NCBI RefSeq assembly: GCF_037975245.1 | Contig: NC_092569.1 | Coordinates: 35,624,668-35,688,667 of the forward strand | Direction: 5' to 3' | DNA from: Apostichopus japonicus | Taxonomy: Eukaryota; Echinodermata; Holothuroidea; Aspidochirotida; Stichopodidae | DNA length: 64,000 nucleotides | Shown here: in pieces, positions 1 to 57,656 of the stretch | How positions within the stretch are numbered: position 1 is the first letter of the stretch | Layout: each line of letters starts with the position of its first letter | Program-made: the position numbers and the translations under genes | Notes under the pieces: model-generated | What the model was told of the DNA's origin: nothing | The model's input: the letters and a program-made list of their open reading frames with translations, nothing else | Databases searched by the model: none

Positions 1-31
1 ATGTTAGATCTACTTTCCGTACTCTACTTAC

Positions 32-113
32 CAACGCTTCCCGCCATCGAAGAATAAATGCAAATACCAAGAAGGAAGCAATGAAAGATACACGAAAACT
101 GAATTGCACTCAT
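32..113 (-). CDS. Signal-peptide exon 1 of a FReD-family gene running off the left edge
   Basis: The minus strand has an ATG at 113-111, an 82-nt coding exon and a GTAAGT donor at 31-26. The peptide starts MSAIQFSCIFHCFLLG and has a hydrophobic core (CIFHCFLLGICIY), so it looks like a cleavable secretion signal. Length, phase (ends after one base of a codon), sequence and donor match exon 1 of gene A at 30914-30995, with only a few differences. The rest of the gene would lie left of base 1. Nothing in the window proves that the missing part is intact. The exon sits head-to-tail against the 5' end of a decayed gene A copy on the plus strand, so this edge is an inverted-duplication junction. 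Confidence 0.7.
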
Positions 114-525
114 CTTCTTTTATCAATGTTTAGTAGAAACTAAGATTTGTTCTGGATAATTCCTTGTCAAGCTCATCAATGTTCTCAGTTACTTTGAAAA
201 CCCTCGTGTCGCTACGCAGATACCGAAGTCTGGGGGAACACACAACCGATCACGTGATTCATGTTCAGCATTATTATTAATGTTAATATTCTACAAAAGC
301 AAAAAAGAAAACGGAAACAGCCGTGCTATTTATCGAAGGATATTGACGTCGTTTGGAATTCAATATGAAGCCTACTTCTACAGAATTATACGCAAAGACA
401 CAATATTAAAAATCTATGATATATAATCAATAAACAGACCTATTTCTTTATAATTGAATTCATTAATTTTTATCATGTCTTAAATTTGTGATTTTGGGGA
501 TCGTGATTTAAGAAAACGTGTTTTG
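114..525 (-). promoter_or_regulatory. Duplicated upstream region with TCACGTGA element
   Basis: This stretch is an inverted near-copy of 30505-30913, the region upstream of gene A. Both contain the palindrome TCACGTGA (here 250-257, there 30770-30777), with the same spacing of about 137 nt to the ATG. TCACGTGA fits E-box / MiT-TFE or USF type sites from general knowledge. No clear TATA box was assigned. Conservation may only reflect recent duplication, so regulatory function is inference. Confidence 0.4.
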
Positions 526-539: not shown

Positions 540-3020
540 TTTATATGAATTCTGAAGTAACTGAATCATTGTGAAACACTTTGTTTGTTATGGAAAGTTA
601 TAATGACGATACATTTACTACCAGCTTCTCTAGATATGAACCCTATTTGGCAATAAGCTCTATAGGTCATGGCCCAAATGGAAGAGAAAGAAAAGGTATC
701 AAACAAATTTGTTTTAGAATACAATTTATATATGCATATTTTCGGTTCAAACGAACCACTTAATTTTTTAGTGGCATTCGATGTTCTGTTATCTGTTTCT
801 CTAAACAGACTTACTGACATATAAAGCTTACTTTTTATATTTTTATCGTGTAAACAAATTTTATTTACTTATGTTTAGTGTTTTTATATACGTTAACGAA
901 TGGTAATAAGTCACAAGAAATGCCCGATATGAGTTTTCCTTGCTGGGTTTTATATTAGGAGCATTACATGCGAGTACTAAATTTAGATAATATTTTAATT
1001 ATAACTAATTCTTTCTAGGCAGAGTCACTGACATAAAGTTAAGTTCACCTTTACGTCCTAGTTGAAAGGTTTGAAGATTAATTTGGAAAAGCACAATTCG
1101 TTAAAGAAATACTTGAATTAATTTTATTTGTTGTTAGGTTGCATATCATCGTTACATGGATCAAACTAATTTTAACAAATTCATTCATTATAATGACTAC
1201 ATTATTTTACAACTACCATTGATGAGTCCCAAATACTATAATAATACACTACCTCAATCATGACATATACCTTGGGGGAAATATCAACACAAGGTGAAGT
1301 AAAACCGCATCAAGCTGGTTAGTTTTAAGTCTATATGCAATTTGCTATCCAAACATTCATTCGAATATTTCTAATTCTATATCTCTGACAGTTAGACGAG
1401 GTAGGTTACATGTTTTCTTAGATATTAATGTATAGGATTTAAAAAGTTAACATGCATTAGAACAAAAGAACAACATCTGACACTGATCATTTCTGTTTAC
1501 AGATGAGAGAATAAAAAAGGAAGCAACACTGGGTGGATTCAAATCAACGTGAACGCCCTCTACTGATGAAATGCGATCATTTATGTCAACCGGTAAAACG
1601 TCAACACCAACAAAAGGAACGTTGGAAACGGATATCAGTGACCGATCAACAACTGCGGCGCACTCAACAGATGGAATGCGAATATTACCATCAACTGATG
1701 AAAGGACAACGCGAATCAAGAGTTTGTTGTCAACAACAAGGATGCCTAAAACAGGTGATTTAAAAAATGTATACCATTAAGTCTAGAATTACTCCAGTTC
1801 ACAATTGGAGATACGATTTTAAGAAATAGATAGACATACGTGAATGCCCTACCGCCTGGCCTTCTCACATATCTATATAATATAACGTTCAAATGGTAAG
1901 ACACTATTGTAACTTACTTTATTTGACTAAACAGTAACATGTTTACATATTTGATAGCTTAGTTTCATCTCTCAATCAGATTATGTTCTAATAGCCAACC
2001 GATAGCGTTACCGCTCACAACATACATTCTTCCAATATGCTGAATTACCCTAGGTTTAATTGAACTTACAAATGTTAGAAACTAACTGAAGTGGTGAAAC
2101 TACAAGTAACGATTCTCTGTTGTTACTCTCATAATGATGGTTGCAATTATTTCTACAGCATTATAGAGACTTCTTCTATTTCATTTCTCGAGACTTGGAA
2201 TAACTAAAGGGATGGATTTGGTGATCTCGATTCTAGTTTCAGGCTTGGAAATGAGATATTGCATGTCATATCATCTCAGACAGATCAACAACTAAGAATT
2301 GATATTTGGTTCAACAAAACCAACGATGGCAGTGCATATCCTCAATTCAATCGGTTTCGAATTAGTTCCAAGACAACGAAATACGAAATAACTATTGAAA
2401 GTTACACAGTGAGCTTCGGTACGTGTTGTTCCTCGAAAAGCCAAAACCACTGGACAAGTTCAATTTAGTCTGATTTTGTTGACTGAATGTAAGACGTATA
2501 GTTACTTGTTTTTTAAGTTGCAGTGTATGTATCAGGTCCGCTTAGGACTTGTGGAAGAGAGAGAAGGTGAATTACTTATCTGTAAATGCTTAAACAAAGC
2601 ATCGGCAGTTACACAATCATAGGTTTAGGCCAATAATTGTTACCTTCATTCTTGAAGAGGGTAACCGAAGCCTTAGACACAATGTCTGTACCTTGTGTTC
2701 ACTTAATATGTGGGATATTAACAATGGTATTTAAAAAAATAGTATTCAACATACTATGTACGTGTCTCACATTACCTAGCTAACTATATAAAGATAATTT
2801 GGTACGTTTGACAAAAGTATTGTCATGATTTTAAAACATGCTTATTATAGCTTTCTGTTATATCAAATAGAATATGACTACATGGATTACCATCGAGATA
2901 TATCAGGACAATGACATAGCTTTACAAAGTTGTGCTAGTAATGAAAGACATTCCCGGCGGCTGGTGGTTCAATGCTTGCTATGGTTTTATGTTGAATTGA
3001 ATCTACGGTGAACCTTAGGA
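540..3020 (+). pseudogene. Decayed copy of gene A (Ser/Thr exon, FReD middle exon, FReD last exon)
   Basis: Bases 540-1500 parallel gene A intron sequence (31490-32480). The Ser/Thr-rich exon is at 1503-1754, exactly 252 nt as in gene A exon 3, but a TGG codon has become TGA at 1550-1552. Its 3' flank (from 1755) matches the intron after gene A exon 5 (33642 on), so exons 3 to 5 look collapsed into one by deletion or unequal exchange. TIL and EGF exons are absent. The FReD middle exon (about 2180-2420, with RDGFGDLDSSF and QQLRIDIWF) carries a TAA at 2205-2207. A frameshifted last FReD exon lies at about 2860-3020 (GGWWFNACYGFMLN, then a stop). Several independent lesions make it non-functional. 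Confidence 0.8.
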
Positions 3021-4224
3021 TACAAGTATATGTTTTTCATCAAATGATTACACTCGATTACAACTGTTCTGTTGTAGCAGTATATGAAAATGAAAACACT
3101 GTGAGGCTCTACTAACAGTTAGTGAAGTCACAACACCCGCGGATCATTAAAACCTTGGCTTGCTGGATGTCTTATTGCTAGGAGCAAAGAAGAGGAGGGG
3201 AGAAGATTGTGACGATTAATCTTAAAGAACATTCAATAAACTTAATAATCAGGTTATATTACATAACATAAAACACTAGAAGCTAAGATTATGAAGAAGT
3301 GAAAAGATAGGCTTATTACTCAAGGTTCCTTTCCATAAGACCACATCATGACAGGAGAATGAGGGTTGGAACTTCATTTCTTCCCAAACCAGACATTTTA
3401 CAAGGAACTTCTTTCATCTCGTAATGTGGATTAAAACTTTTTGATAAAAGCTGGTTACCTTCACTGTTATGCGATAATCCCAAAATAAAACCAACAAGGT
3501 TTGGCATCACATTGCTTTGTATTCTCTGTTATTATGAATTTTTACTCGAAATATATAAGACTTTTATTAAAACATTTTGAATTATTTTTGAATTAGTGTA
3601 TCATCGTTAAGGAAACGACTAATTATGATTCGAAAATACTTGTTGAAGGAGAGATTATGTGTACATAGGTAAGGTGCCATAATAGGAAGCTAGATTATGC
3701 CATACTTTCAATACCACATGTTCGTTTAATGTGCTAGTTCGGTCACCAAACATATTTTCAAGGTATAAGCTGGAAGACAAAGGAGGCATTTATAGAGAAT
3801 TAAAATTAATGCCAAATTATGATGTGACAGAATGCAGAATCTTAATTTACTATATCTGTGCATAAAATACCTCTAAAAACCGTGAATGACAATGAACTTT
3901 AGTATTGAAATTGTTTTTGTTGAAGAAGAGGTTCAATAAAATTGTTCTCTTTGAAAGATGTTTACACATAACTCAATTGGTTCCCTTCTTTTTCGGATTT
4001 TCTGCTTTCATCATCTTAATTTGCTGCTGCTGGAAATGCTCCAATTTTTTTCAATCTGTTAAGCCTACTGAAAAGCACTAAACGAATGAAGTAGTTTTAT
4101 CCAGGTTAAAGTAGTAGAATTTCGCTCTAAGTTATAAAATATGATGTATTTGCACTATTAAAAACACAATGATACTGATAATTGTCTTGATAAACACGAC
4201 TGGAGCATAGTCTAACGGAGTGTC
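3021..4224. other. Non-coding interval
   Basis: AT-rich sequence between the gene A pseudogene and the LINE. I see no convincing exon, RNA gene or ordered repeat in it. Confidence 0.5.
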
Positions 4225-10351: not shown

Positions 10352-13300
10352 TCAGAGAGGTTTGATTTTCATTTCAGTTGTAGCAATATCGCAGTCAGCA
10401 ATCATTCGTTCCCTGTCGTAAATGCACAGTCCAGCTTTCCACGGTTCGCCATACCTTCCATTGAAATTCGCCGTAGTACATGTAAAATTATCATACCCAT
10501 TGTACCACCAGCCAGCAATATGTGGTACCGTGCATTTTCGTGATGTACTGTTATCATTGTCACTGTCATATGTTGAAAACCCAACACCACGATGATATCT
10601 CATGTAGTCATATTCTGAGTACAATGAGAAGGAAAAGGTAACCAGCAAACAAAAAACATACATATTTCTTGTAATTTTTTTTTTCCAGGAAAAATCGAAA
10701 CTAAAAGAGCTCTCATCATCGTCTATTGTGACGATGGGGATGACAATGACAATGAAAATGACAATTGAAGACGAAGATGAAAACAAAGATGACGAAGATG
10801 ACGATGGCGACAATGATGACGATGTTGAGAAATTTTGATTTGATTTTTGACGTTTTTTTCTTATACGATGCTAATGCTCCTTAAATATCGAAAGTGCCAT
10901 TCGATCGTTGATCACAACAAACCAGGTTCCACACTCTATCATGAAGGTTTACAAATTTCGTTCATGGCAAATATCGTGCATTGCATTATAGGCTACGATA
11001 AAAATGTTTTACTCACCCAAGCTGCCTGTATAACTGCCGAGCTCTTCTAGTGCATAGTTGTTGACTTCTGAACCAATTCGAAAGAGATCATACTGAAGAA
11101 AGTGGGTAATGTTACTACTGCTGTTCTTAAATTCCATTCTCAGGGTGTAGTCCCGTTGGGCAGTTATGTTGGCTAATTTTTCGTTTCCTAGCCAATGTGA
11201 ATTAGAATCGCTTCTACGGATGCCATTTCTGTAATAATCCCAGTCATAAAAGAGACCATGGTGATCGACGCGGAGCTGAAAAAACTAAACAACAACAGCC
11301 AAAAAATAGGTTGATATCAGTCTGCTACTTAGTTGTGGCTCATTAAGGAAGTATTCAAGGTCCACTTGAAGCCAGATTAATCAAGAAAAGTACTTCTGTG
11401 ATGTTTGTATGGAATATATGAATGATCTATATATCAACAGGAAAAGACACTCTCCCCTCACATATCTAAGTGGATATTTGCAGCCCAGCCATATTATCAA
11501 AGTTTTTTTGCTCCTTGGAAATATATAGTTTCACTTTGTTTACATTATGTTTAACACAAAAGCACCAAATAATACTTGTTCTTCAACAATCTGTTCTTTA
11601 ACGTTGAAGTACGTAGGTAACGTAGTCCCACGTATTAAATTTCAGGGGCGGAGTATAGAAGTACAATGTGTAGTATGGTACATGTTATTTCTCTTATATA
11701 AAACGACAGCTATCATAGACATAAACTCAAAAGAAAGTCTTCTTACAGTCCATCCGTCTTTGCAATAAGCTTCGAAAGGTTCCCCTGACCATGTAAGCGG
11801 GTATATCAAGTGAAAACCTTCACTGATTACGCCATTGTCGTAAAGATCTTGGCAATCCTGTACACGTTTACATACGGTCCCATTCCCCATATAGTTCACG
11901 TTGCAATCGCACGACATAGTGCCATTATGGTTTTGGCACATCGCATGTTCACTGCATGTATAGTTTATGCATACAAGAACGTTATTCTCACATGAGCATG
12001 TTTCCGTGCAGTCCATCGTCACGATCCGCGATCGGCCATTCTTAATACAGAGAAAAGGTGAATAAATATGAATATAGTGATGCCACTTTGATGATATTAC
12101 GTAGATTACATCTCTGGAATAGTGTTCTAGTGTGTTCTCAAGGTAAAACATTACAACTTTAAGGAACTGTTTTTCATATGAGCTTCATTTAGTCCGTCCA
12201 GATATATTTGAGGGCACAGGTGTTCGATTAAGTCAGGCCGGGCGTGGACGGAGTATTACTTGGAAAGTTCTTGGCTTCACTTCTGATTGGCTCTGTGGAG
12301 CAATATGCTTGTTAATAGTTCTTTTTTTTTGGAGGTGTGTTCCACAAAATAGTTAGCAAATATGATCCCATCATCGCATAGTCTCCCTCGCACACCCCTC
12401 GCACACACTTTCGACAAATTTGGATTGATTATTGAATACGAAGGGTCTCACCATGATTTTTTACTGTTTATTGAACATGAACAGCCATTAATAATATCGT
12501 TTGATTAATCTTACATTTTTATGTTTTTAATTCAATTTCATGATTTAAGAACAGAAGGAGAGAATGAATTATCATAAGATCAACAGGTATTTTGTGTCGT
12601 CCATTGTAGATTAATTACTTTGTAAATTAATAAGATTCGTAGCTTGATCACTATCGAATCTCAAATCTGTTCAGTACATTTACCAGAACAGTAAAAGCTA
12701 CTTGTAGCATGACAATTGCAAAGAAATAGCAAAGGTGACATCATTTGTTTAATATCACCTACTATAAAGACATGTCCACTGTATCCGTCAATGAAATTCA
12801 AATATGTGACATTGGCAAGTAGAGAAACTTCCCTTTTATCTTTGTTTTGTAAAACCCTACAACTGATATTTGTTAGGATAGAGAAGACTGGTTTTGGCGG
12901 ATACGATTGTTAAGGAACGCACATGATAAATATACTAATAACAGTTTAAGAATACCGGTATGACTCCTCCCGTTTCGTGATAACACCCACAATCACTCTC
13001 CGGTATGCAATTCTGTCCGAGTAATAAAAAGCCGTCTGGACAAACACATGTTCTTCCTCCAGTACAGTTTATATGGCAGCCAAACCACCCATAAGGGTCT
13101 TCACATGTACCCTGGCATACACAGTCAGCAAAGACTTGATTCAAAGGACATTGTGGCGTGGTGGTCGCACCTGAAAATAGAATATGGAATATGTCATATT
13201 TCATCATGGTTTTGTTAAGGCAAGTTTCCCTTCGGTGTCAGCTGCTTCGATCATTCACATATTGTGGTAGTGCGATGTTGTACACGTATACTAGTAGTAA

Positions 13301-15504
13301 CAGTGAAAATGGATTTAAGTCTCACCTACTGAGTTTATACAGGAGGATAAGAAATGAGCTTAAAGTAAACACAGACCCTGGCCCTCCCGTCAACCGAACA
13401 TCATACCCAACTCGAGAAAAATGGTACCATATACTTAGTCTCACGACAATAGAGTTAAGTTCTGCAGTTCTGAATTTAAGGAAATATTCACCAAAATTCA
13501 GTCCACATATGCTTATCAATTAAACTTACTTGTCTTTTGTATGTGCTATAGTTTACAAGAAAGACAAAACTAACACTATTCAAAACGCTAGTGAGATCAG
13601 TGCTGTCATATCTAAGTGAAGCATGGAAAGTGACAAAGATAGAGGAGCAAAAGTTGGATGCTTTTCAGTTCAAGTGCATTCGAAGAATACTGAAGATACC
13701 ATGGACCGAAGTAGTTAGCAATGACAGAATTATGCAGCAAACAGGCATAAATAGAATAAGTGTAGAGATACGGAGACGCAGATGGAATTGGATTGGTCAT
13801 ATTATGTGGAAGGAGACAGGAAATCATGCAAGAGTAGCAATGGAATGGGCACCAGAAGGAAGGCGGAAGGTTGGCAGACCCAAGACTACTTGGAGAAGGA
13901 CAGTAACTAAAGAGAGAGACATGAGTGGCTGGAGAAGCTGGTCCGATGTGAGAAGATCTGCAGAAGATGACAGGGATGGAAAGAGAGCATCTTGACCTTA
14001 TGTAACAGACGTTACGGAGAAGATTAAGAGATTAAGAGTACAAACACGACTGGGACAAGCCTATAGATATGTATCATCTAACTACGGGTTGAACTGTCAA
14101 AATATATCCTTTATTAACTTGTAGTTATTAACAATTTTATCCATGTTATATGGATAGGTTATGAAAAAAAAAATTAGGAATTTAAAACATTGAAGTTATT
14201 AATAAGAGTTCACGAGGTTATTGGTTTCATTGTCAAGATGTGATGTCACACTTTACATTGAAACCTTGAAAAAAAGGAAACATAGAAGTGCAATGAATTC
14301 ACAAATGACAAAATGACAATGCCCTATTGTAACTTTTGAACAACAGTATCTCTCACACGGAAGAGGATTTTCGTTAGATTGTTGTCTGAATTGTCTATCA
14401 CAGTGATTTCTTATTCACAAGTTACATTTGACAATTGTGTTGTTTTTGCTTCATAACGTATTTATCAAGAAAAAGAATGGATAACAGATAAGTCTCATAC
14501 CAAAAACCCAGCTAAACCAATTTGAATAAATAACAGCAAAGACTGTGTAAAAGAAATAAAGTTACCACTTAATTGAGGATTCCGATGGGAGAGACCTTTC
14601 ATGTAATTCTCGAACTCGCATATGCCTGTTATTTTAAAGAACAAATGCACGTAATAAGAGAATGAAAAAAATGAAAACAAAGACTATCTATACACTAATC
14701 TTCATCACCTCTCATCACCAAAACTGCCTAATAACTCAGAGACACCCATACACACAGAGAACACAGTATCTACTATAAATCTTCAAATTTTGTACCACAG
14801 TAAAAACCGGATCGTGCTATAAATCGGTAGCATATGCTATTAGGATTACAGTGGGATCTAAGGATATGTTTAATCCCAACAAATCCAGTTAATGCAGTTT
14901 TGTGGATTACATGTATCCTCAGTTCTTACTGTAATCCTAATAGCACATGCTACCGACTTATCAGCACGGTCCGATTTTTACTGTGGTAGAAAACTTCAAC
15001 ATTTACAGTAATTACTGTAATCTCTATGTTAATCGGTTGTCAGGGAAGCTCGTTACATTTCAATCACAACAGTACATCATGAGATTGGTCTAGAATAATT
15101 TTATATCAGATATATTAGCTGTTATCATCACTGTGGTTAGGCCAGTAGCCCGTGCTCGCTGGCAGCAACATATTGGGCGAGATGTAATTCCAGATAACAA
15201 GCAACGCAATATTCAAGTGAGTGTATTTATCTGCAAGTGTACTTATGTCTCACAACTTTCATAAGAAAGTTGTTTGAGAAAGATAAACTTAAAAATCATG
15301 GTACATTAATACAAGTTATATAAGCAGACAAGTTAGCTTTAAGTTAATGGAAGATTTAGTTGATATGCCTTTTACATTATAAACCAAATGTATAAAACAA
15401 AATAAAAATAATCAAACCTTACCCATAGCAAGCGATATGTGGACGATATTAGCATAAAGTAAGACAGCAGTTATTGCACGCTTCCGATTGGCAAAGTTCG
15501 CCAT
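10352..15504 (-). CDS. Gene C: secreted TIL-EGF-FReD protein, complete five-exon model
   Basis: Exons on the minus strand: 15504-15423 (signal peptide, 82 nt, starts MANFANRKRAITAVLLY, donor gtaagg), 13170-12956 (TIL), 12040-11747 (EGF-like plus start of FReD), 11275-11017 (FReD middle), 10614-10352 (FReD end and TGA). All joins are GT-AG and phases match (1, 0, 0, 1), giving 1113 nt or about 370 aa. TIL has eleven cysteines, beginning CPLNQVFADCVCQGTC, with CVCPDGFLL and CGCYHE. EGF includes CSCENNVLVC and CDCNVNYMGNGT. FReD has NCxDLY-like CQDLYDNG, HWLGNEKL, the calcium-site run YDSDNDN, GWWYN and the terminal MKIKPL. TIL modules often inhibit proteases and FReDs bind acetylated sugars or surface ligands, so a secreted recognition protein is likely. 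The exon 1 assignment rests on phase, donor and hydrophobicity. Intron 1 contains a LINE fragment and a fold-back MITE. Confidence 0.82.
10690..10830. repeat. Degenerate GAT/GAC-rich microsatellite in gene C intron
   Basis: Repeated gatgac, gaagat and gacaatgat units lie just upstream of the acceptor of the last exon of gene C. On the gene strand this is a C/T-rich run (tcatcgtc) that may add to the polypyrimidine tract. This is simple-sequence DNA. Confidence 0.7.
13545..14070 (+). mobile_element. 3' end of an RTE-like LINE
   Basis: The plus-strand frame from 13591 to 13995 (134 codons) reads YLSEAWKVTKIEEQKLDAFQ, CIRRILKIPW, RRRRWNWIGHIMW and GRRKVGRPKTTWRRTV, and ends at a TGA. This is the C-terminal tail found after the reverse transcriptase in RTE-group non-LTR elements. 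Upstream bases 13545-13590 extend the match (KTKLTLFKTLV). Endonuclease and catalytic reverse transcriptase parts are absent, so it is a 5'-truncated insertion. It lies antisense within gene C intron 1, between the signal exon and the TIL exon. Confidence 0.85.
14752..15042. mobile_element. Fold-back MITE, copy 1
   Basis: The core 14793-14988 is an inverted repeat. It opens taccacagtaaaaaccggat and closes with the near-complement ending tttttactgtggta, with arms of about 60-70 nt (gctattaggattacagt against actgtaatcctaatagc) and a short centre containing ggatatgt...acatgtatcc. Weaker outer arms (acagagaacacagta against tactgtaatctctat) extend it to about 290 nt. A related copy lies about 2 kb away. 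There is no coding capacity. Confidence 0.8.
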
Positions 15505-16473: not shown

Positions 16474-16745
16474 GTATAGAGGATCTAGATGTATTCAATA
16501 CAATAATACATCATACTTAGTGTTATACATTTTGTAATAATGGGTTTTGTTTCAATTAATCAGGTGGAGGATTTGTAAATTACAGTGTCTCGAAGGCACA
16601 TGCAGCCAAACATTCAATTGTTACATTAATTATCGATGTAATCATTTTGTTCTGTTTTTTTTTGTGTGAAGCCTCGTCAAAAAGAGGATCACTGCTCTGG
16701 TAAATACAAGTATAACGACGCGACGATGATTGTATTCACCCGATA

Positions 16746-17046
16746 CATACAGAGAACACAGTAACTATTATTAATCTTAAATATTTGTACCAAAATAAAA
16801 ACTGGATCGTGCTATAAACCAGTAGCGTGTGCAAAAAGGTTAACAGTAAGAACTAAGGATATGTGTGATCGCAACCAATCCAGTTTGATGCATTTGTTGG
16901 GATTACACATATCCTCAGTTCTTACTGTAATGCTAACAGCACATGCCACCGATTTATCAGATTGATCACCACGATCCAGTTTTAACTGTGGTTAATTACT
17001 TTAAAATATAACAGTAGTTACTCTAATCTCTGTGTTAATCGGCTGT
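16746..17046. mobile_element. Fold-back MITE, copy 2
   Basis: Same architecture as the element at 14752-15042: outer cagagaacacagta, inner taccaaaataaaaactggatc, centre with ggatatgtgtgatc...acacatatcc, then cacgatccagttttaactgtggt and an outer end with taatctctgtgttaatcgg. One arm is more diverged (aaaaaggttaacagtaag), so the palindrome is less perfect. The two copies define a small family. Confidence 0.78.
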
Positions 17047-18129: not shown

Positions 18130-18330
18130 AAGTGTTCATTGTTTGCTTTATCAAAAACGCATACTCCAGTTTGGTCAGATGGGTTGTAATCTCCATTCAG
18201 GTTAGTGTCGAAACAATATTTATACCACCAGCCACCAAGACAACAATTCACACATCACTGGAAGCAGCATCATTATCGTTGAGAACGGATAGCCTCTATG
18301 GTAGTCCATTGCATTGAATCCTGAATGAGC
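18130..18330 (-). pseudogene. Relic of a FReD last exon
   Basis: Minus-strand translation in shifting frames gives MDYHRGYPFST, an Asp/Asn-rich calcium-site remnant, then GGWWYKYCFDTNLNGDYN and QTGVCVFDK. These are in the order expected for the C-terminal part of a fibrinogen-related domain. Frameshifts and a stop disrupt it, and I found no partner exons nearby. It is probably a leftover of a former member of the cluster. Confidence 0.72.
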
Positions 18331-22131
<3,801 letters not shown>

Positions 22132-44315: not shown

Positions 44316-47300
44316 CTACACAGGCCGTATTTTCATATCTGTGTATTGCAGGCTGCATCCGTAACCATTCAAACTATAACTTTCCCAGTACATGTGCGTT
44401 CCTCGAGTAGAGCCGTCGTAGTCTCCGTTCAGGTGAGAATAAGCGCAACTAGCGCAGCTGTCGCTGCCAACGGGAAAATAATAACAATATTAACTATAGT
44501 TGGGACAGTCAGACCGACAATAAGAAGCAGAATAATAACGTCTACAGTCCCATTGATCATAGAACCACCAGGCTCCTCGGTGTCTCTCAGCGCAGCGGTA
44601 GCTGCTCCATCCATCGTTGTCCCGGTCTTTTGTACTGAACGGTTTATTGTTGCTACCAGACATACTATCATAACCTGCAACAAACAAGAAAGAGTAAATA
44701 AACCGGTCATTTTATATACTTTGAACGAATCCAATGTCGGATGCTAGATAGAGGGCAGTGCGTTTTTGTCCTACCAACATGAAAACGTCAGTTCCGGGAA
44801 TGTTTTGTTTTTTGTGTTCAATATTCACGATACATAAGGTGGTATTTTGTCTTTGTAATGGCGTTTTTATATATTTTTGTTGTTGTTCCGTTTGAAATAC
44901 AGCACCACAACAGGAGTAGAATACAGATGGGGAAACCACTTTAACCAAATACTAGGTTTGGGTTACTAGAGTCGCTAATATCGCTCTTTATTAATATTTA
45001 TTCTTCCGCAAGTATTTACAATACTATTCATTCATTTCATTATTTGATTGTTATTTCTAAGTTCACAACTGATTAGTTTCCTACTCTGTCAAAACTGTTG
45101 TAAATTTCTTGTTTGTTGAATAATATCACCCTGTTCTACTGTTTACAGGGTATGCAGGGTGTTATAGTCATCGATTGGTCAATTCTTTAACCTATATCTA
45201 TAACACTGTGTAAGTTTTGTATCTTTCAACCTGAGCTCATACGTCGGACTATAAACGTAGATTGAAATTAAACTATACACAAATCATGAAATCAATACTT
45301 TTAAATGAAGAATAGAACCGACATTGTATGAACGGAATTTACTATTAATGTAGTAGCTAATATTCTAGGTTTCGACAAAGTAACCAAAATTCGATGTATT
45401 TACACTTATGAAAATCTTGAATGATATTGATTATCGTCTTTTTATTATTTAGTTCTTATCGACATGTACTTCTAGTCTCGTACGTATAACTTCTTTGAAC
45501 AGACTGATTGATCGATTAAAATTTATCGAATCTATACAGACGAATATTTCAAATAAATAATTTCTGATTCATCTATTTCAATGTTCTATGCATGATAAAC
45601 CCTAGATGACTTTTCACATAACATGATTAAATTTAAATAGCGCCTCAAAGTTTTCACATATGAGAATCATCGAATATACTTACCACTTAAAGTCACACTA
45701 TACAGTAACGAGAAGGCACACGTGGCATGCTTCCAGGTACTACTAATATGATATTAACCCCTTTGTAAGTTTGAAGTGATGCGAGTTTGGTAGACAACAG
45801 CGAGCGGCAAGGCAACAGACATTTACGATAATTTTCAGAATACTCGTTTAGGTTGGGATGATAGTGATGTTGAGATTTACTTTCTCTGTGTCAGAAATAC
45901 ATGGACACTGGCTAGTATTATAATATCTACTGCCATAGTTTTATATATTGTTAGGTGCTTGTTACGTGCAAACACGGCCAAGAGACTTGTGTTGCCAATG
46001 GAAAGCCGATCTTATCGTCTGCTTCTTATGTCTGTACACATTGTATACAGTCCTGAAACCTACGTGCGTTCCAGCTGTAGTTCAAACGCGTGAAAGAAAA
46101 TAGCAATGTTTGGAATTGAAAATTGCTGTGAACCTTGAAATTATATATCATTTAGCCAGGAATGCGGTAGCTATGAGATCAGGACATTAGTTGTTGCAGA
46201 ATAAACATTGAAGGAGTACTACAATAATTCATTCTATACGGGAGCACGTCACATGATCCTCCTTGGTTGACATGTTTTTTTTTTTTTTTTTTTTTTGGGG
46301 GGGGGTCTTCGCGCGTCTCCTAACTGACGTGATCGGCCCAGATTTAAGTATGCGTCAATGATTAGAACCATCAATTACTCACCTGTATTTCCCCTGTGTG
46401 ATCCAACTGATAGTCGATACTTGTCTGCTTCGTGATTAATGCTAAAAGTCGAATAGACGGCGTATTTTGATGATGAGCCGGAGTCCCTTAGATCAATTCG
46501 AAGCTGGTAAGTTTTCTGGTTGGTCATAGAGTGGATATATTTATTACCTAGCCAGTGGTCATGATTTTTATTACCGAAACCGTTCTTGTAGTCCGACCAA
46601 CCACTATAAAAGTCAACGTAGGCACTCGATCGTCGCTGGAAAACCTATGAAAAAAAAGAAAAAAAAGTGAATCCAGCTATGTAATCTAGTTATCCGTAAG
46701 AGCATAACATCCAACGCCGTTAGATAGTTAACAAAGATATGGATACTGTGAGAGGGAGATTATTTGCAAAAGTGTTTTGTTTCTTGATTTTGGTTCTTCC
46801 TTAAATGGTCAAGTTCATCTCCACGAGATCTGCAGTGCATCATTTTGAGTAAAGTAAAGTATAATGTTAGGAAGTTAAGAATTTAAATCCTAAAATGTTT
46901 GTGTAACTCACCGTCCATCCTCCTCCGTTACTTCCCATCTCACAGTAAACCTGAATGCCGCTTGGCCAACCATCAGGGTAAATGGTGTAAACACCATCAC
47001 TGCGTGTACCGGAAACATAAAGCTCGTGGCAATCTTTTGGGAGGCTTGTGCACGTCACTCCGTCCCCTTGGTAGTTTGTATTGCAGTAACATTTACGGAC
47101 ACCACTCTTCGTAGCACAGGTTGCGTGACTACTACACTGGTAACTCTCATCTACAAGCCGGTTGTTCCTACAAGTTGATTTCCGTGTACATCTTGAATTG
47201 ATGTAAAAGTGGCCCTCCTAATTTAAGATATAAAGCAAAAAGAAAATTTACAACTAAAATGAATAATGAATTTGCGGTTGTCACAGTGAAATGTACAGGA

Positions 47301-50300
47301 TTTCAACGGTAGGTGGCCAATGATAAATCCCCTCGAATGATCTAGGAATAGGTATGACCTTTATGAAAGTTTTATAAAGTGTTTGAAGCCAACTCCGATG
47401 TAGGGAGCGAAGAGATCCGCCTTTATAAAAAGTGGCTGCAAATATTGCATTCAACGGCTTATTGCGACTATATATCAGGCCTACAAATAATTCTAACCGC
47501 AAGACTGTGAAAAAAAAGTATCTATGGATGTTTGTGTCAGGCGTATGAGTGGATGCAGACTTGTAGGGAGTGGCCTCGTGATTCCCGACTAAACGTAATA
47601 GTTCCCTCGACTGACAGTTTTGACTGATCTGGAGACCCCCCAAAAAATGGGTAAACGGCCCCTCCCCAACCAGGATGCACGCCACTCGAGTATCTGTAAA
47701 TGTAATGTTTTTATCGACAAGTGGTCTTTGAAGCCAACTCCGATGTAGGGGTCCACGGGGTTTGACATGAAAAGGTAGCATGTTGCATTTTTTGTCAAAT
47801 GTTGCATTAAAACGGCCTATCGCGACTATACATTAGGCCAACAATTGGTTTTCACCATAAAACTATCGTTAGTAGTATCCAAGCATTTTTGTGTGTCAGG
47901 TTTATAAGGGAATGACATCTGTAGGAGTAGTCTTGTGCTTCCTGACTAAATGTAAGTAAAATATTTGCTTCTTATTATGTGAAAAAGTCATTAAGAGCAA
48001 AGCACTTAAAATGAAAGAACCGTACTGACCATTAGTACACCTCCTTTGTCAGCAACGAAGCAGTTGCATTGGTTGAGAGGGATGCATTGTTCTTGCTGTC
48101 TCAGATAATCACCGACACAAACACATTGCTCTGATTTTGTGCGAGAGGTAGCTGAGATGCAAGTCTCAGGGTCGTCACAAGTCCTCTCACAGGTCTCATC
48201 GCTAAATATCTCATTGGCTGGACACCATTCAGGGATTGTTTCTAGAGAACAGGAAAGAAAAAGAAATGAAAATAATAGTAACCTGGTACAGTCACGACAA
48301 ATATGACATGTGGCATAGAATAGTCTGTCTTCATTACTTAAATACGTAATTGTCAGAAGGTTAAAGGAAAGGAACATACACTCAGAAGCTGCTCGAATAA
48401 ATGTAGAACATTTTAAATAGGTAGTGGCCGTTCCCTAGTCACATTAATGTTTCTATTCATTCTGATAACGAGATAAAATACACCATCATTTGTTGTGCAG
48501 TTAGTCTGAAACCAGGTAGTCATGGCTTGTTTCTGTTTCCGAGTTCTCTCGGTGTAAGTATACTGCTTTCTGACAACAATGATAATTACTAACAACATTA
48601 AATTTCTTTTCGTTGGTTGTTCTGATCAAACTGGGAGATGAACCTCGTATAATTGTAAACGTTCTGTTGTACTAACGTTAGGAACGGTTCCTAGTTCAGA
48701 GCCACGGTTGGTTTGAGTACGAAGCAGTCTTGTAGTGAGTGCGTAATCACACCGTTTGGCTAATGAAGGCATTTTGGAATTCTAGTATGGACACTGATGC
48801 AAGATTAAGTGTTTAAACTCGCACTAAAAGCTTTTACTTGCACTCATATCATATCATATTGTAATTGCTACGATATGTCTTGTAGCGCCGTTGTACTAGC
48901 TGATATACTATATGTATACTCGTACTATAAATATTGTAGCAGTTTCTTCAAAACATATTTGACATGTCAAATTTACTTCCAAAAGATATCTTCGTTTTCA
49001 GATTAAACCTTTCATTTTCTGCACGTTAACGTTTGACATTAATGAATGGTCACGATTTTTTTTATTTTTCTCTGCTTTATATTTAATAATAATGTAAAAG
49101 ACACTTACCATCTGATCTTTCGAATGTTCCTAAACTAGATATATAATAATCCCCCGATTCATCTGAGATACGAAACTCGTCGTATGTTACATGGTAAGTT
49201 TCTCCAGCAACGTTCTCAAAGTCCATTCGCAGTTGGTATCGCTTTTGATTTGTTAAGACGGCAATTTTCTCATTTCCGATCCAAAACTCACTCCCTAGAA
49301 AGCCAAAGCCATTTCTAAAGTCTTTCCAACTTCTACTAAAATTTACAGAATCTGATCCTCGTCGCTGTAATACCTTCAAAGAATATCAAAGAAATTAAGC
49401 GCTAACTAGGACGTGATTGAATTATTATTATTTGTTCCCTACTGCAATGCGATTTGTTGCTAACAGCTATAACACACATATTTTAACTTATATTTCTAAC
49501 ATCAGTTTTTAGTTTGGGCTAGATGTTTGCAGTTTCCTTGGAAGAAGAACTACACTGTACATAAGTACAATCTGGTGCTTAAATTCCACAATATTAAAAT
49601 AATTGATTCAAACTTTCGTTTCGATAAAAAAGCTAGATTCTATTTGAAATAATGACTTTGTATTACATCGCTATATATTGCTGCAATCAGAATCTGAAGG
49701 AAATTTGTACAAAACTATTTAAAGTTGAAAAGAAAACATCAAGTAATCAGCCATACCGTCCATCCACCAGTATCAAGATCATTATTACAGTAAGCCTCAA
49801 ACGGTTCCGGATGGCCATCTGGTTTAATACGATACACTCCAGATGTATTGTGGGTAGAGTAACATGCATTCGATACTTCTTTGCAATCTCTCGGATACGC
49901 AGGTTGTTGAAAAACAAAGTATGAAGAACCTGGATGGAAAGTAAAACAAAGTTATCATTTATTGTGACTGTAAAATCATTTTAGCTAACAAAAAATCGCC
50001 TAAGATGCTTTATCTCAATTTCTTCTCTCCACCCAGGGGTTAAATAGGTACATGTGAGGTAACTTGTCATTAGGCGCAATATATAGCTGCAGCTGTCTGG
50101 TTGGATTGTCTCTGGGCCAGGATATCATTGAACAGGGGTAATATAACGTCTGTAAAGCTCTTTGAAACCTATCGCTATTTAAAAGCGCTACATTAACCGA
50201 ATGTTATTAATATTATTATTTTTACGATAAGACTTTTTAGTTAATTGTAAGAGAACTGGTTTTGTTACTAAGCGAATTAAGGCAATACATCAGTTTAAAT

Positions 50301-53300
50301 ATCAACTACTACTCAACTACCATATAGTCGAAGATATCACGACTAACATCTAATGAGGTAATCGTTATTGAATTATCGATGTAACTGTTTCGAAGCATTA
50401 TATGTGATTAGTTTTCAGCCTGCAATGGAAATTCAAAGACCAAGTAAATTGAATTTCTTTTTAACCAAGCTTCCGTAGTTATCAATCATACCCAAGTGAA
50501 ATTAAAAGACTTACGAAAACAGGCAAATCCCTTTTGTTTAAATGTACCTGAGAAAATATCGATGTGGGACGTAGGATAAAAAAGATCGAAAGTATACTAC
50601 TCAGTGGAAATCAACCTCGAAATAGATATTCGGAAATAGTTACACGATTGAAAACACAAAACGTCAAGAGCGACCATTACAAAGCTAACATTTCCAGCCA
50701 TTCAAGTTGTCAAACTGAGGTGTTAACGTTATAATACATAAGTGATATAACTTACAGAGGTTAACTCTTATTATAAGATAAATCATTAATATAAATATTA
50801 CACCTACCTGAAGATCTTCCCTCGGCACTGACGATTATCTGTGTAATAAAATATATTGACTGAATACATTACAAGACATACAGACTATTGCAGTCAACGG
50901 AAAGTAGGACAGATTCAATCTAATGTTAACCAAACCAGTTTGAGGGAAAGAACTTTTCGCAAACTGGTCCAAAATATGTTAGTTTAAGAGTAAAGTCGAT
51001 TTTTACTTTGGTCAATTCTCTGGATCACCACTTTCAATGATGTTTTTCTTTTGTCTATATTTCATATAGAATGCACAGGTCAATGATCACTTAGAGAGTA
51101 CAACTTTCTTCCATGAAACAGTATATTACTGACATTTTTCCGGTTTTACAGCCACACTGGCACATGATACGTACGTGAAGAACAAAGGCAGCTACCTGGC
51201 TGCTTCCCTAAACAGCTGTGTTGCAATTGCCTAATGCAGACATATGTTCTTTGTTCAAGTTATATTTTGACATTAAAACATTCTTTTGAAAAGTGTCATT
51301 TTACTTGTAAGGTAAGTTCATATCCAGTGTTGTATTTCTAGTGTTGTGCCGATATTGCCAATATCGGACCTGGCCGATATCCGATATTTCAATCTCAATA
51401 TCGGCCCTATACCGAAACCTACAATTTCTAAACAGACAGTTTGAATGTCAAATCGCACTATAAATCATACTTTAATACATAAAGTATCAGAAATATAGTC
51501 GCCTATCGTAAAATATTATATTGCACAACTCATAAACAGTAACCACTTGACAATTCCTTTGTGCCTATTCTATAACATTAGCCCTAACCTCTTTTTAACT
51601 GAATGATCATAGTCCCCATCAAGATGGCAACCGTTTGCTAGCATTTTGTTCTTGGAAAAACACAAGTCCATTCTTCCTCTTACTTCTGTTGAACGATTCG
51701 TTACTCTGTTTGACCCACTACGCTAACAATTTAAGCTGCAAGTCTTATACAAAATGTCGTCACATAGAGCCACGAATTTCTTAGCAAAATATGACATCGA
51801 GTTATGAATAAGACTGACTTCATGAAGAAAAGACATGAGCGTATCCTAGCTAAGAACTTTCACTACTCTTAGTGATTAACAGAACCAAAACCACAATAGT
51901 TTCTTTATTTTTTTTAACTTCCGTAAAAAGTATATTCTACCATTGGACGGCTATACTGACAACTAAGCTTAGCCAAAATTAGCATTAATCGTTAACCAAC
52001 CGAAAACAAATTGTGATACACAAACTTGATTCTCAAAATACAATCTTTTCAACAGTTATGTTCTAACAAAATGCATCTATGATACTCCTTGCAGCTTCTT
52101 AAAAGATACACAATTTTTCGAATGATCCAGTAGGGGGTGTCCAGGTGTTATAAATGTTATTCTCAGCTGAGGACTCAGATGCACTGTGCAAGTTAGTGTG
52201 ATAAGCTACTACTGTATTTATATACATAAAGTCACATAGACTTGTAAAATTTACTTTAAAGCGCTACAAAGACTGCTAAATACGTAGCGTTAGGTAGCCT
52301 GACTGGTATGCTTACAGATTATTATATCATATGAGCGGTAAATATTTTCAGAACTTGCGCCATGCTAGTTTGACCAGCTAGACAAGTTTCATAAATCACA
52401 GCAATAAACATGAAGTGGCTTTGTTGTGGGAAAGACGAAGCAAATGATCAATATCGGTTTGCCGTTATTGGCAATGAGGCTAAATTCTACCGATACAAAT
52501 ATGCAGCCGATATTGCAAATATCGGCTGATTCCGATATCAGAAACGATTATCGGCGCAACATTAGTTTTAATTGGCACTTAAGATCAGTTTATCCATTTT
52601 TTTGTTTGAAAGATATGTCATAGGCAGGATAACGATGTCAATTCCTTTCCTCCTATCCCTTATTTTTCTTGCCTTATGCTCCTTCTTATAGCATACATAG
52701 TTCTTTATAATGATGGAAAGTTGAATTTCTTCAAAGTGAAAACACTGTCACGAGCTTACTATGTACAATAGATCGTTGTACTTATTGCTAGGAATAAACT
52801 ATGCTCCATTGCAAGACAAAGAACCAACAGCATTGCACTTCGTAGTTTATGTTCATGCAGTGATAGAACGAAAACGTAAAAAAAATATATATTCCTCTGA
52901 TAAACCTGGTAAATGTTGTGGATATCACGTTTGAACTGTGCTGACCCAAAATTGCTCACGAAAATTGTTCACATACCATAATATAACGACCTTAAACTTC
53001 TTACAATCGACGAAGCACAGAAAAACGATTAAGAGCAGAAATCGGAATTGGCTCCAACAATATAGGTTATTTTCACACGTATTACACACACAAACGGTGA
53101 AAAAGGTCAAATTGGAAATCTAAAGTCCTTTTACAGAGAATAAGATCGAACTAGATTGAACTTGATCGAGTCTCCCACGGGTGGAAATTTAAGATGGAAA
53201 CTTAAGATGGAAGACATTTTGCTACTCACATTAAAACGCATGTTGTTCATGAATACTTAAATATTGGCAAAACAAATAACATGATCATTGCATATGATTG

Positions 53301-56300
53301 TGGCCCACATTTCATTATAACTGAAATCTTTACAGAAGCCCTCGAACCCTCACATGACGACAAAAATATTCTTCCTGTATATTTTTGGTTCACAGCCATT
53401 CAAACTTATATCTACGATGCAAAATGGTAGAAGTACGTTATTGCACAGCGAATGTAAGACACGCTTATTAACGCTACCTCGACAAATCTACGTAGTACAA
53501 TAAGAAGAATAGACGTTTAGCATTAAACTTGTATCTTTTATAATATGATGATCATGATAATGATGAAAATTGCAACAGAAAGGAAAGAGAAAAAGAGGAA
53601 GTTAAGGAAGAAACGAGGAATTTAATATTTCAGACCTAGTCATTCATGACCAAAATTCCATAATGTGATATTGCTCTGCCATAGGGGATAAAAATAAATA
53701 AATACTCGGCTTAAATGTGTAAAAGTATGAAGGATCGGAAGCAGCCAAAACAAATGCATTTCTGTCTTGTTTGTTAATTTCGAATAATTATGATATAAAC
53801 ATGTTAGAACAGCCGAGCATATGAATGTTCAAAGTTTATGAAATGACAATGTTTTCTGTCAAGACAAAAACACATTGTATAGCATTTCCAGTAGTGAAAT
53901 AGACAATTCTCTGAATAAACCAGGAAAAAAGCATAAGATCATTCCTGCAATTTTTGCAGTTCTCTGTTTTTTTTTTGTCTTCATCAAATTTGTGAAAATG
54001 TTTCAAAACATAGCTTGCACATGGGCGATATTATCAATAGTTTTAACACGTCTAACATGTCAAGAGTTACTTTTTGGCACGAGTTTTTATCCTTCTAGAA
54101 GAATATGGTCCTTGGGTACAGAAAATGGTATCACACTTACCTCAAGTCATAAGAAATTAAAATCTACATTTTATACTTTGCTGTTGCCAACAAAGTAAAG
54201 TACACAGTATAGTACTATCTCAACAAAGATATTGAAGCGGTCAAGGCGATTTGTTTGGGATATATCCAAGGTTTTTTGTTGTCGTCGATAAAGTTATCCA
54301 GGAAGCACAGACGTTGTGCGACGTTATTGTTGTATCTGTATGAACAATTGTGTTTATTTTAACCAAATGCTGAGTATCACATACCAATTGTTCCCTTGAA
54401 TATAATGCTCGTTCGAAAGCCACAAATTATATGATATGAAGGAATTTAATTAGATATTCTTCAACATATAAAGCGAATTATTACCATACATGGAGTAGTA
54501 ATAAATGTTATGATAATACTTTCTAGTTTTTGCAACGTGTTAGAAAAGAGACCTTTAAATAAAGTGTTATGTATTTTATGTTGTTTAATTTGTTAAAGTC
54601 TATAATCGATGTTGTTAAAGTAAAGGGAGAGTTTCCTTTGTATACTGAATTATATTACATATTACATGTAAACGATATAAGAAATGTTAAGTTATATACT
54701 ACACCAAATAGCCACATCACGAAGGGAGGGTGTGAGTCGGGTATAGGAGGGAGTCATTGAGGGCAGAGAAGAATTGTTGAATTCAAATTGAGACTATTAA
54801 ACGTTACAAGGAAGTTTACATGATCAACAACTGGTGTGGAAATCAAAGTAAACTACAATATTTGTGATTAGAGAATTAACAGATAACTTAAAGGATCATG
54901 AATGTCTTTCTTTCTCGTAGTAGTTTATTTCCAGGTTGAACAGTTGTTTTTGTATTACTTTGAGTACACAAATACTAATGAAACATCTTACTACTCTCTA
55001 TTTTTAGTATGATTTTATAACGTCTATTCTATTGGAAAGAGCCTTCCAATCCACTTAATCTTCTAGTTTATTAAATTAAGGATCGTGTAATAACATTATC
55101 ATTTGAGAACAAGCTCTTACAATACTATCAGTTGTAATTATTTCACTAAATTGCTAATGCTTTCTAGACGTAAACGTCATTGCACATTTTATTATAATAA
55201 AGCGACAGTTAAATTCGAAATACTCAGTTAAACATATCGCACACATTCGACAAACAATACGATTCTTTACAGGTGTTTCATTTTAACTCACAAGAATCAA
55301 AACAGAAGTTAAAACAGTGTGCAATGTTCATAAAAGTAACTTAAACGAAAAGTTATTTTATTGCTTCTTAAATTAATTAATTAAATGCCATATGAGCATA
55401 TTTAGGGATGTGCACATTTTTTGTTGCTGTTTTAGTTAGCTAACGATATATAAAAAATATCTCAATTTAGTTCCCCATTCACAATAAAAATCGTATTTCT
55501 TCCTTTCAATTAACGTATTATCTTGGCATTGTAAAACGACATTAAACTCTGAGTCGGTATCAAGGATTTACGTTTAGTCAAGTTATATTACTTCTCGAAA
55601 AAATAATTGGGGAAATCAATATTATTTAACTGTCGCTTTAAAAGGCTTGTGACTGAGATTTTTCTTTACAAACTTTATCATTTTAAATAAAATTAATGAA
55701 CATGTCTTACATTTATTCTGCTCTAATATCCATCATATTTAAACAACGGAGTGTTGGGATTAAATTCCCTAGGAATATCTAACAATATATAGCCTAACTG
55801 AAGGAAATGAAAACACGAAAAGAGAGCAAAAAATGGAAGCTAGCCACTAAAATCGCCGGAGAAATTTTCATGATCGCGTATATCATACCATTCTTTTCAG
55901 TGCCTGCAAAATAGCATTTGTTATTTTCTTCTAGTCCTTTATCTTTGATTATTCGTTCTGAAATAAATCCGTGTAACTTAATTTTTTTTATTTTCAGCAT
56001 TACTTTTGTACATTTCACTTTTTTTAGTTTCCATGGATTAGTTTTAAATTAGATTGACGTGTACACCAGTTGGATTTATTGTTATTCAACTTTGTGTCCT
56101 TGAATATGTACATGTACAAGAATCGTGATCTTAATATGATATTTTCAAAATACATTTCAAAGTACCTTTATTTTTTGTTGCAGACTGTTTGTTTAAACTT
56201 TGGCACACATATAACAATATATTTTAAAGATATCTCTATGAACATGTGAAGGAAGTAAATATTTAGGTGCTCTTTAGAAATTTAAATCTGAAAAGGTCAC

Positions 56301-57656
56301 GTTTTGATGATTGTTTGCAACAATATAATCAAACTTAAAAATGAGTATTTTTTTCATATTTGATTAAACCTGAACCACCCTTTCAAGTAATAGATATCTT
56401 ATTTAAAGGATGTACCTTGTCATGATAGTTTTGTTCAATGTATATATTTACCCAACTGTTCACTATTTGAAATGGAAGTTAATAAAGCATCTTTGTGACT
56501 GGATTATCATATAGAAATATTTTGGTTTTGATTCGTTAACGCAGATGTTGCTTTAATGTATATATAAGGATAACTTGAACAAAGACGAGAAATAAAATGT
56601 CTGTTCGGAAATCATATCAAAATAACAGAGCTGAAAAAGGAAGTTGCCTTTATGAAGGTGAAAAGTCAAATTATTCGTATGTAATTTATATCAAAAAATA
56701 AAAACAAGGCATTATAACAAATGAAAACAAATGATTGAAAACATTTAACGATACACAAAGTACCGAATATTGCTCTGTATAAAGAGGGAATCTCATGATT
56801 GGATTTTTAACAAGGAGAAAATTTAACTCATGAATCTAACAATAAAAAAAAAAAATTAAAGTTTAGTTTTCAGTATCGCTGAAATAAATGAATTTCTGTT
56901 TTTAGTTATCGTACTCGTAGCCCAAATTATGGAGTATAAACTTATGAACTAGAATTATCTACAAGTGTATTTTAGCTCACTAATTCATAATATGAATTGG
57001 GTGCTGTAACGTGTTGGTATGTATCTGTGAAAGGTGGGGTTAGCTATTGGAGGGAAACCTTGTAAACTGACGTGCTGTAAAATATATGTGGGGAGCGATA
57101 TGCTCATAAATTTGAAAAGAGATTACTTTTTCCTGGCCATATCACGAAACTTAATTGACTTTTAAAAATTGGTGTGTAACGAAAACACGTTTGAGATGTA
57201 TTAATTAGCTTTTCTTTTAAGGATTTTATATGTGGACAAATTTTTAAGAATACTGTATTTAATCAAAGAAGAACCGATTAGATGTAATCTTTTGTTTTTA
57301 TTCCAATATATGTGGTTAAATTAAAGACGTTTTGTTATTTTTCGAAACACTGCTGTCCTTTCTCGAAGTTAACATTTCTGAATATTTTAAATTGATAGTC
57401 TTCTAACTGAAATTTATCAGGATTTTTTATCGATACATTCCTCATTCTTCGAAGACACTTCACTTTGTCACATAATTCAATATCAACAGAGTTAGCTCAA
57501 TAACACATTGACGCAACTTATTTTAATTTCGAAACAGAAGATATTCAATAGAGTAATAAATAAAGTATATTGAATAAAAGAAACACTTACCATTTCTGTT
57601 GCAAACGAGCTCCAAATCGTCAAAACAGTCAAAAAAACGTTGAAACACTTCTCCAT
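44316..57656 (-). CDS. Gene B: chimeric half-FReD / TIL / EGF / FReD secreted protein, with one in-frame TAA
   Basis: Minus-strand exons: 57656-57591 (signal, [18 protein letters not shown]), 50838-50808 (31 nt), 49929-49757 (FReD start, [19 protein letters not shown]), 49373-49109 (FReD middle, [20 protein letters not shown]), 48241-48030 ([19 protein letters not shown]), 47217-46912 (EGF then CHELYVSG...GGGWT), 46644-46383 ([23 protein letters not shown]), 44674-44316 (last FReD exon). Phases match at every join and the sum is 1674 nt, 557 aa. The first FReD lacks its C-terminal exon and runs straight into TIL. The last exon has the calcium-site run KDRDNDG, RGAWWF, LNGDYDG and terminal [10 protein letters not shown], but a TAA at 44492-44490 interrupts it. 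See findings for a possible small intron. Intron 1 spans 6.75 kb. Confidence 0.78.
46275..46305. repeat. T22-G9 homopolymer junction
   Basis: Twenty-two T then nine G in the intron before the last exon of gene B. Same form as 34813-34841. Confidence 0.9.
47382..47960. repeat. Two-unit diverged tandem repeat in gene B intron
   Basis: tttgaagccaactccgatgt occurs at 47382 and again at 47726, a period of 344 nt. After each copy follow ttgca..., cggc(c)tat(t)cgcgactata, atcaggcc/attaggcc, gtgtcaggcgtatgag/gtgtcaggtttataag and a cctgactaa-type end. No coding frame is shared. Confidence 0.75.
50050..50220 (+). mobile_element. SINE or LINE tail with CR1/L2-type 3' end
   Basis: The segment ends ctgtaaagctctttgaaacc, then cgctatttaaaagcgctacatt and a (TTA)n-like tail. 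This is the widespread 3' end shared by CR1/L2-group LINEs and their SINEs. It sits in gene B intron 2, between the 31-nt exon and the first FReD exon. The upstream boundary is uncertain. Confidence 0.5.
51339..52564. mobile_element. Non-autonomous hAT-like DNA transposon candidate
   Basis: Ends tagtgttgtgccgata on the left and tatcggcgcaacatta on the right are imperfect inverted repeats. Sub-terminal regions are packed with the palindromic words gccgatat and atatcggc, which is common in hAT-type elements. Flanks (tgtatttc and gttttaat) are only a weak 8-nt duplication. No transposase frame was seen inside 1.2 kb. Confidence 0.6.
52565..57590. other. Remainder of the long first intron of gene B
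   Basis: AT-rich. Open frames such as 53875-54198 show no domain and I do not support them. No further exon recognised. Confidence 0.45.

Follow-up and report, generated by a model that had tools for sequence, protein, structure and literature searches.

What do the clustered FREP genes of the sea cucumber Apostichopus japonicus encode, and what might their products do? The window analysed here, a stretch of 64,000 nucleotides (nt) at C9:35,624,668-35,688,667, sits within a large array of genes for fibrinogen-related proteins (FREPs), which carry a fibrinogen-related domain (FReD). An expansion of FREPs in this species, clustered and mainly on one linkage group, was reported in 2017 with a link to regeneration; the accessible part of that account covers copy number, clustering, phylogeny and expression (PMC5638244). 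In the window, phase-matched exons encode a TIL-TILa-EGF-FReD order of domains, and copies of the family differ at the exon for the C-terminal pocket. Judging from sequence, the family is rather likely to be a germline-encoded, soluble recognition repertoire of the coelomic fluid, with a pocket remodelled gene by gene.

Three genes, A, B and C, had been proposed in a first-pass annotation of the window, and the exon coordinates it gave for A (30914-36367), C (15504-10352) and B (57656-44316) were confirmed, with GT-AG introns throughout. As whole genes the three fared less well, since C is complete, but A lacks its last exon and B carries an in-frame TAA. Gene C (10352-15504, minus strand) is intact in the window, with five exons forming a complete open frame of 373 amino acids (aa) that ends in a stop codon and has no frame break, and with an N-terminus that is hydrophobic by eye. 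Its exons, from 5' to 3', are as follows:

15423-15504, minus strand: signal exon of 82 nt, phase 0-1 (spliced model; signal judged by eye)
12956-13170, minus strand: TIL and first part of TILa, phase 1-0 (Pfam, spliced model)
11747-12040, minus strand: second part of TILa, EGF and FReD start, phase 0-0 (Pfam, spliced model)
11017-11284, minus strand: FReD middle exon, phase 0-1 (spliced model)
10352-10614, minus strand: last FReD exon (P subdomain) and stop codon (Pfam, spliced model)

Gene A (30914-36367, plus strand) has seven exons without an internal stop or frame break, and is truncated in the window:

30914-30995, plus strand: signal exon of 82 nt, phase 0-1 (spliced model)
31163-31258, plus strand: short Cys-containing exon, phase 1-1 (spliced model)
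32487-32738, plus strand: Ser/Thr-rich exon, phase 1-1 (spliced model)
33483-33641, plus strand: Ser/Thr-rich exon, phase 1-1 (spliced model)
34214-34419, plus strand: TIL and first part of TILa, phase 1-0 (Pfam, spliced model)
34995-35285, plus strand: second part of TILa, EGF and FReD start, phase 0-0 (Pfam, spliced model)
36100-36367, plus strand: FReD middle exon, phase 0-1, the final exon of gene A in the window (spliced model)

The exon grammar that had been proposed for all three genes holds in A and C, where the signal exon is in phase 0-1, the TIL exon in 1-0, the exon for EGF and FReD start in 0-0 and the FReD middle exon in 0-1, with A adding its three 1-1 exons. B departs from it only in that the signal exon ends in phase 0 and is followed by a 31-nt exon in phase 0-1. 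Shared phases of this kind allow modules to be inserted with the frame intact. TILa is encoded jointly by the TIL exon and the exon after it, giving the order TIL-TILa-EGF-FReD. The modules and the order TIL-EGF-FReD had thus been recognised correctly, but TILa was missed in an exon-by-exon reading because a phase-0 intron splits it. A further correction is that B carries additional FReD start and middle exons upstream of TIL.

Spliced gene models were scored against Pfam, which serves as an independent test because the exon hidden Markov models derive for the most part from exons of the window itself (those models gave 23 matches in the window and none in 20 shuffled versions made with a first-order Markov model). 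TIL, TILa and Fibrinogen_C all exceed their cut-offs in A and C, while EGF_3 falls just short of its cut-off of 28.5 at 26.2 and 26.8, respectively. Fibrinogen_C reaches 102 bits in C and, in a model three residues short, 93 bits in A against a cut-off of 22; the match in A covers only profile positions 3-131 because the last exon is missing. Gene B, scored with 51 nt around its stop omitted, gives 177 bits for Fibrinogen_C and also passes for EGF_3, but TILa (25.0 vs 27) and TIL (16.7 vs 24.5) stay below. The domains expected from the first reading were therefore recovered in part: Fibrinogen_C in all three genes, TIL in A and C only, and EGF_3 in B. In the paralogous locus L042 (17.2 Mb), each of TIL, TILa and EGF_3 exceeds its cut-off.

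The stalk and the FReD have different nearest relatives. The PDB sequences closest to the TIL-TILa-EGF part of gene A are FCGBP chains (9e-17), followed by weak matches to the LDL receptor, NELL1 and VWF. The direct succession of TIL and TILa likewise resembles the TIL-E modules of FCGBP and von Willebrand-type proteins; unlike in those proteins, the pair is here joined to EGF and FReD, and no VWD or C8 domain was found by Pfam in the spliced models scanned. The FReD of gene C is nearest to angiopoietin-1 and that of gene B to FIBCD1 and ficolin-1. With FIBCD1, the ficolins and tachylectin-5A the family shares a FReD that has a calcium-site motif (by eye) and a C-terminal pocket, but the collagen-like stalk of the ficolins is absent from the models scanned. 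The mollusc FREPs are likewise a large, diversified family of FReD proteins, and they have Ig-type domains; in contrast, Pfam scans of gene A and of the paralogue L029 from the first methionine gave no Ig-type domain.

How far does this architecture extend beyond the window? Genome searches with the TIL exon, the fused TILa-EGF-FReD-start exon and the last exon of L042 each listed 150 matches, out of 565, 1208 and 604 candidates, respectively, and the counts from the first two are lower bounds. For 105 of the 150 TIL exons listed, the fused exon follows on the same strand at a distance of no more than 5 kb (median gap, 378 bases); the control counts are 2/150 upstream and 2/150 on the opposite strand. 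Most listed matches lie on C9 (133/150 for TIL, 136/150 for the fused exon). A last exon of the long type, described below, follows within 6 kb in 46 of the 105 listed pairs, and relative to the listed EGF exons it lies downstream in 56 of 150 and upstream in none of 150. Four loci picked from the TIL matches (L039-L042) all have the TIL, EGF/FReD-start, middle and last exons in order, although the last exon of L040 goes out of frame near its end. Just upstream of the window, L038 (C9:35616001-35624800) holds a C-type gene at 1472-3157 on the minus strand, whose FReD middle exon is interrupted by a frame break. A tandem family in this order, as the first-pass annotation had described, is borne out by these searches and is far larger than was claimed.

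The copies differ at the last FReD exon, which encodes the pocket. Ordinary FReDs of the genome have 7-11 residues between the motifs GAWW and NLNG, the C type has 12-13, and the long type, for which five copies (window B, L029, L031, L037 and L042) were compared, has 34-43. In these five the loop consists to 47-62% of Tyr, Cys or Ser, and 5-6 cysteines are kept. The insert aligns where FIBCD1 has Cys414-His415, described in the accessible part of the source as the acetyl site, at which the main chain binds the acetyl oxygen (PMC3908420). In the long type, unlike in the FIBCD1-type acetyl pocket, the Cys-His loop after GAWW is replaced by the insert. With the last exon of L042 as query, 132 of the 150 matches listed align over nearly their full length and 14 list an internal stop; the 132 are a floor on the number of such exons and not a share of the family, as the query selects its own type. 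In net length the end-to-end matches run from 16 residues shorter to 15 longer than the 104 of the query, the shortest overlapping ordinary last exons (80-88 aa) and being classed by alignment extent alone.

Sequence divergence within this exon was examined as nonsynonymous and synonymous differences per site (pN and pS). Comparison of window B, L029 and L037 gives identities of 36-71% for the loop and 82-85% for the segment that follows, with pN at 0.13-0.41 in the loop vs 0.07-0.09 after it; pS is also high. The last exons of the C type form two classes (the set draws on eight of nine extra loci, L051 having been dropped as a middle exon, and includes L038 with its broken middle exon). Comparisons between these classes (24 pairs, 11 sequences) give a pN/pS of 1.31 for the whole exon, with 1.30-1.47 in segments one to three and 0.81 in the final segment, and comparisons inside each class give 0.31 and 0.65; among the sets compared by segment, only this class pair exceeds 1 over the exon. 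Gene C of the window and L038 give a corresponding ratio, dN/dS, of 1.35 for the last exon and 0.14 for the FReD start (5 changes), on small counts and with L038 frame-broken. A few other single exon pairs reach 1.1, each on fewer than 12 changes.

The long type is represented in the window by gene B (57656-44316, minus strand), which has eight exons and a single in-frame TAA, located in the last of them:

57591-57656, minus strand: signal exon of 66 nt, phase 0-0 (spliced model; conserved in L036)
50808-50838, minus strand: 31-nt exon, phase 0-1 (spliced model; conserved in L036)
49757-49929, minus strand: start of an extra FReD that lacks a last exon, phase 1-0 (spliced model)
49109-49373, minus strand: middle of the same FReD without last exon, phase 0-1 (spliced model)
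48030-48241, minus strand: TIL with two cysteines lost and first part of TILa, phase 1-0 (spliced model)
46912-47217, minus strand: second part of TILa, EGF and FReD start, phase 0-0 (Pfam, spliced model)
46383-46644, minus strand: FReD middle exon, phase 0-1 (spliced model)
44316-44674, minus strand: last FReD exon, with a 43-residue Tyr/Cys/Ser-rich pocket insert and the in-frame TAA (spliced model)

The 31-nt exon (50808-50838) restores phase 1 after the phase-0 signal exon, and both exons recur in the flank of L029 (L036) with 30 of 31 and 60 of 66 bases identical, respectively. A 51-bp intron at 44464-44514 that would remove the stop was rejected: the last exon of this type occurs stop-free in L029, L031 and L037, which read through the stretch with neither stop nor intron, so a plain stop is the simpler account. 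Gene B is probably disabled.

Two relatives, L029 (C9:35.39 Mb) and L031 (C9:34.71 Mb), follow the order of gene B with a FReD start and middle that lack a last exon, TIL, TILa-EGF units and a full FReD, the first FReD-start exon of L029 falling in L036. The L029 model has 14 exons and 975 aa, with every phase matching and an N-terminus that is hydrophobic by eye. Six exons of 210 nt in phase 0-0 each complete one TILa and begin the next, and Pfam finds seven TILa, seven EGF_3 and two stretches of Fibrinogen_C, TIL being absent from the match list. L029 has seven TILa-EGF units vs six in L031, within a 6.8-kb block that is 98.8% identical, and the closest relative of the extra unit is another unit of the array (94%). 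Live gain and loss of modules, suggested earlier from the window, is thus seen in this pair.

The extra middle exon of the B type clusters with L019, L022 and L032 in a tree built from 33 middle exons (support 0.91), apart from the main FReD that the B-type genes carry; these three loci are without TIL in the 10 kb examined. This grouping suggests that the B-type genes arose when parts of two FREP genes were fused. Just upstream of its TIL, L042 has a faint match (13 bits) to a middle exon, so the FReD fusion may predate the 35-Mb array. When the extra middle exon is joined computationally to the last exon directly, the phase is kept, and one gene could accordingly make two recognition domains that share a pocket exon but frame it differently.

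What would the TIL-TILa-EGF stalk contribute? Protease inhibition combined with ligand binding in one protein had been put forward, such that TIL would inhibit a protease while the FReD directs the protein to its ligand. The ten-cysteine TIL pattern is kept in A and C, and the loop between cysteines 5 and 6 has the sequence FKS in A, HIN in C and NRD in L042; in known TIL inhibitors this loop holds the reactive site, and a basic residue there would be the P1 residue of a trypsin inhibitor. On the other side, TILa comes directly after TIL, the arrangement of FCGBP and VWF proteins, with FCGBP the nearest match, and comparison of three copies shows the A-type TIL to be conserved (dN/dS 0.09-0.41). 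Cysteines 2 and 6, a bonded pair in known inhibitors, are missing from the B-type TIL, and the ten-cysteine order is absent from B, L029 and L031. Taken together, the presence of TILa, the C5-C6 loops, the cysteine loss in the B type and the conservation in the A type favour a structural stalk. Protease inhibition is therefore unsupported and, as a reading of the family, very improbable, though gene A might still act in this way.

Stalk modules of extracellular-matrix and mucin type would also suit matricellular or clotting-like proteins that serve wound repair or regeneration and not microbial recognition. In line with such a role, the available text of the 2017 report describes a rise of A. 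japonicus FREPs in mRNA and protein during visceral regeneration (PMC5638244). However, the variation of the pocket exon in length and sequence seems more than a structural role needs, and a FREP of Holothuria glaberrima is described as lipopolysaccharide-induced in the part of the source available (PMC2702171). A purely structural family is possible but unlikely, and the two roles are not exclusive.

The reading that we favour for the family is a recognition repertoire. The proteins would be secreted, with the TIL-TILa-EGF stalk spacing or joining chains, and the FReD pocket, altered from gene to gene, would bind different acetylated or other surface ligands. Such a repertoire might act in aggregation and opsonisation, and perhaps in wound repair. 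FREPs are reported from the coelomic fluid of H. tubulosa in the accessible part of one study (PMC12119288). A further proposal is more doubtful, and we advance it tentatively: the genome may encode well over 100 FReD lectins in which long Tyr/Ser/Cys-rich loops, variable in length, rebuild the acetyl pocket, together with a B-type double domain that shares one pocket. Long loops of this sort would be comparable in kind to the ultralong CDR3 loops of antibodies.

Several points weigh against a recognition repertoire. Two of the three window genes are damaged, and L038 and L040 also have frame breaks. Among the matches listed, 45 of 150 TIL and 44 of 150 EGF exons are without a partner. TIL occurs in only 2 of 20 ten-kb loci around high-scoring Fibrinogen_C matches (L029 and L031), so TIL belongs to part of the FReD family. 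Near-identical exon blocks lie 0.57-0.68 Mb apart (L029/L031, and C9:35.01-35.09 / 35.58-35.66 Mb), and the partial repetition of the C9 array at 34.6-35.7 Mb could be an assembly artefact, with two haplotypes placed end to end, or a recent duplication. Splicing is predicted from open frames, splice signals and paralogues, and secretion from N-termini judged by eye. In the long loop pN/pS is below 1 in every pair that differs, so positive selection is not demonstrated there. The suggestion of a diversifying recognition locus thus agrees with the variable pocket insert and the C-type pN/pS of 1.3, but not with the ratio in the long loop.

Part of this evidence would also fit a family in which most copies are decaying by-products of unequal crossing-over, with the long loops being low-complexity sequence under relaxed constraint. 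The broken genes and the low loop ratio are as expected from decay, and the Tyr-Ser codon repeats resemble slippage. Decay on this scale is nevertheless improbable, given that 132 of the 150 long-type matches listed align end to end and only 14 list an internal stop, that the 5-6 loop cysteines are kept in the five copies compared, and that the FReD start appears constrained between gene C and L038, on the 5 changes available.

The surroundings of gene A contain further copies and repeats. No last FReD exon was found on the plus strand after 36367 within the window by tblastn with four last-exon probes, so an overlooked one there was rejected, and A-like last exons occur in the window only in relics at about 2.9 kb and about 27.8 kb. 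A 4.7-kb direct repeat (36699-41368 and 59340-64000, 92.7% identical, the second copy extending to the window end) begins about 330 bases past the FReD middle exon of gene A and may account for the loss of its last exon. The Cys-containing exon at 31163-31258 has no Pfam match. The duplicate signal exon and the relics that had been annotated were both recovered, the former with 96% protein identity to the signal exon of gene A over 27 residues and the latter as four stretches that contain stops or are fragmentary:

32-113, minus strand: duplicate of the gene A signal exon, within an inverted copy of the gene A 5' region (sequence match)
1502-3033, plus strand: relic of an A-like gene without TIL and EGF exons, with stops in exons (sequence match)
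18099-18309, minus strand: relic of a last FReD exon (sequence match)
20049-20209, minus strand: relic of a TIL exon (sequence match)
27750-28645, minus strand: relic of an A-like copy, comprising its FReD middle and last exons and containing stops (sequence match)

Among these lies an inverted pair (23526-24886 / 25548-26908, 1.36 kb each, 99.6% identical), each with a 264-aa frame that presumably resembles a Penelope-type GIY-YIG endonuclease. A 0.3-kb repeat (14743-15040 / 16737-17046, about 79% identical), which also matches in inverted orientation, is perhaps a small palindromic mobile element. Elsewhere in the assembly, which comprises 671,581,487 bases in 35 contigs, C35 is a 16,099-base mitochondrial genome, with cox1 named by Pfam and the remaining genes by eye, in the order cox1-nad4L-cox2-atp6-cox3-nad3-nad4-nad5-nad6(-)-cob, then a tRNA-rich stretch and nad1-nad2; we take this to be the echinoid/holothuroid order. 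On C29, at about 14.7-31.2 kb (L010, L011), COX1-like pieces with TGA codons represent a nuclear mitochondrial copy or a second mitochondrial assembly.

With FREP expansion and regeneration-linked expression already known in A. japonicus, the kind of family is not new. Published sea cucumber FREPs, such as FREP-A of Parastichopus parvimensis (P19477) and the expanded A. japonicus family, are alike in the C-terminal FReD, but the TIL/TILa/EGF architecture, the long pocket loop and the repeats of exon units are not described in the accessible parts of those accounts. The TIL-TILa-EGF-FReD architecture was not found in the literature searched, outside which most subscription papers fell. A 2026 review, in the part available, credits FREP diversification to molluscs and treats echinoderms only generally, as having large germline-encoded families (PMC13428168). 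As far as these searches reach, the architecture, the pocket loop and the FReD fusion are new. A large part of the FREP family thereby gains a domain architecture, an exon grammar and, in the pocket exon, a defined site at which copies differ, and germline-encoded, diversified recognition in an echinoderm becomes directly testable.

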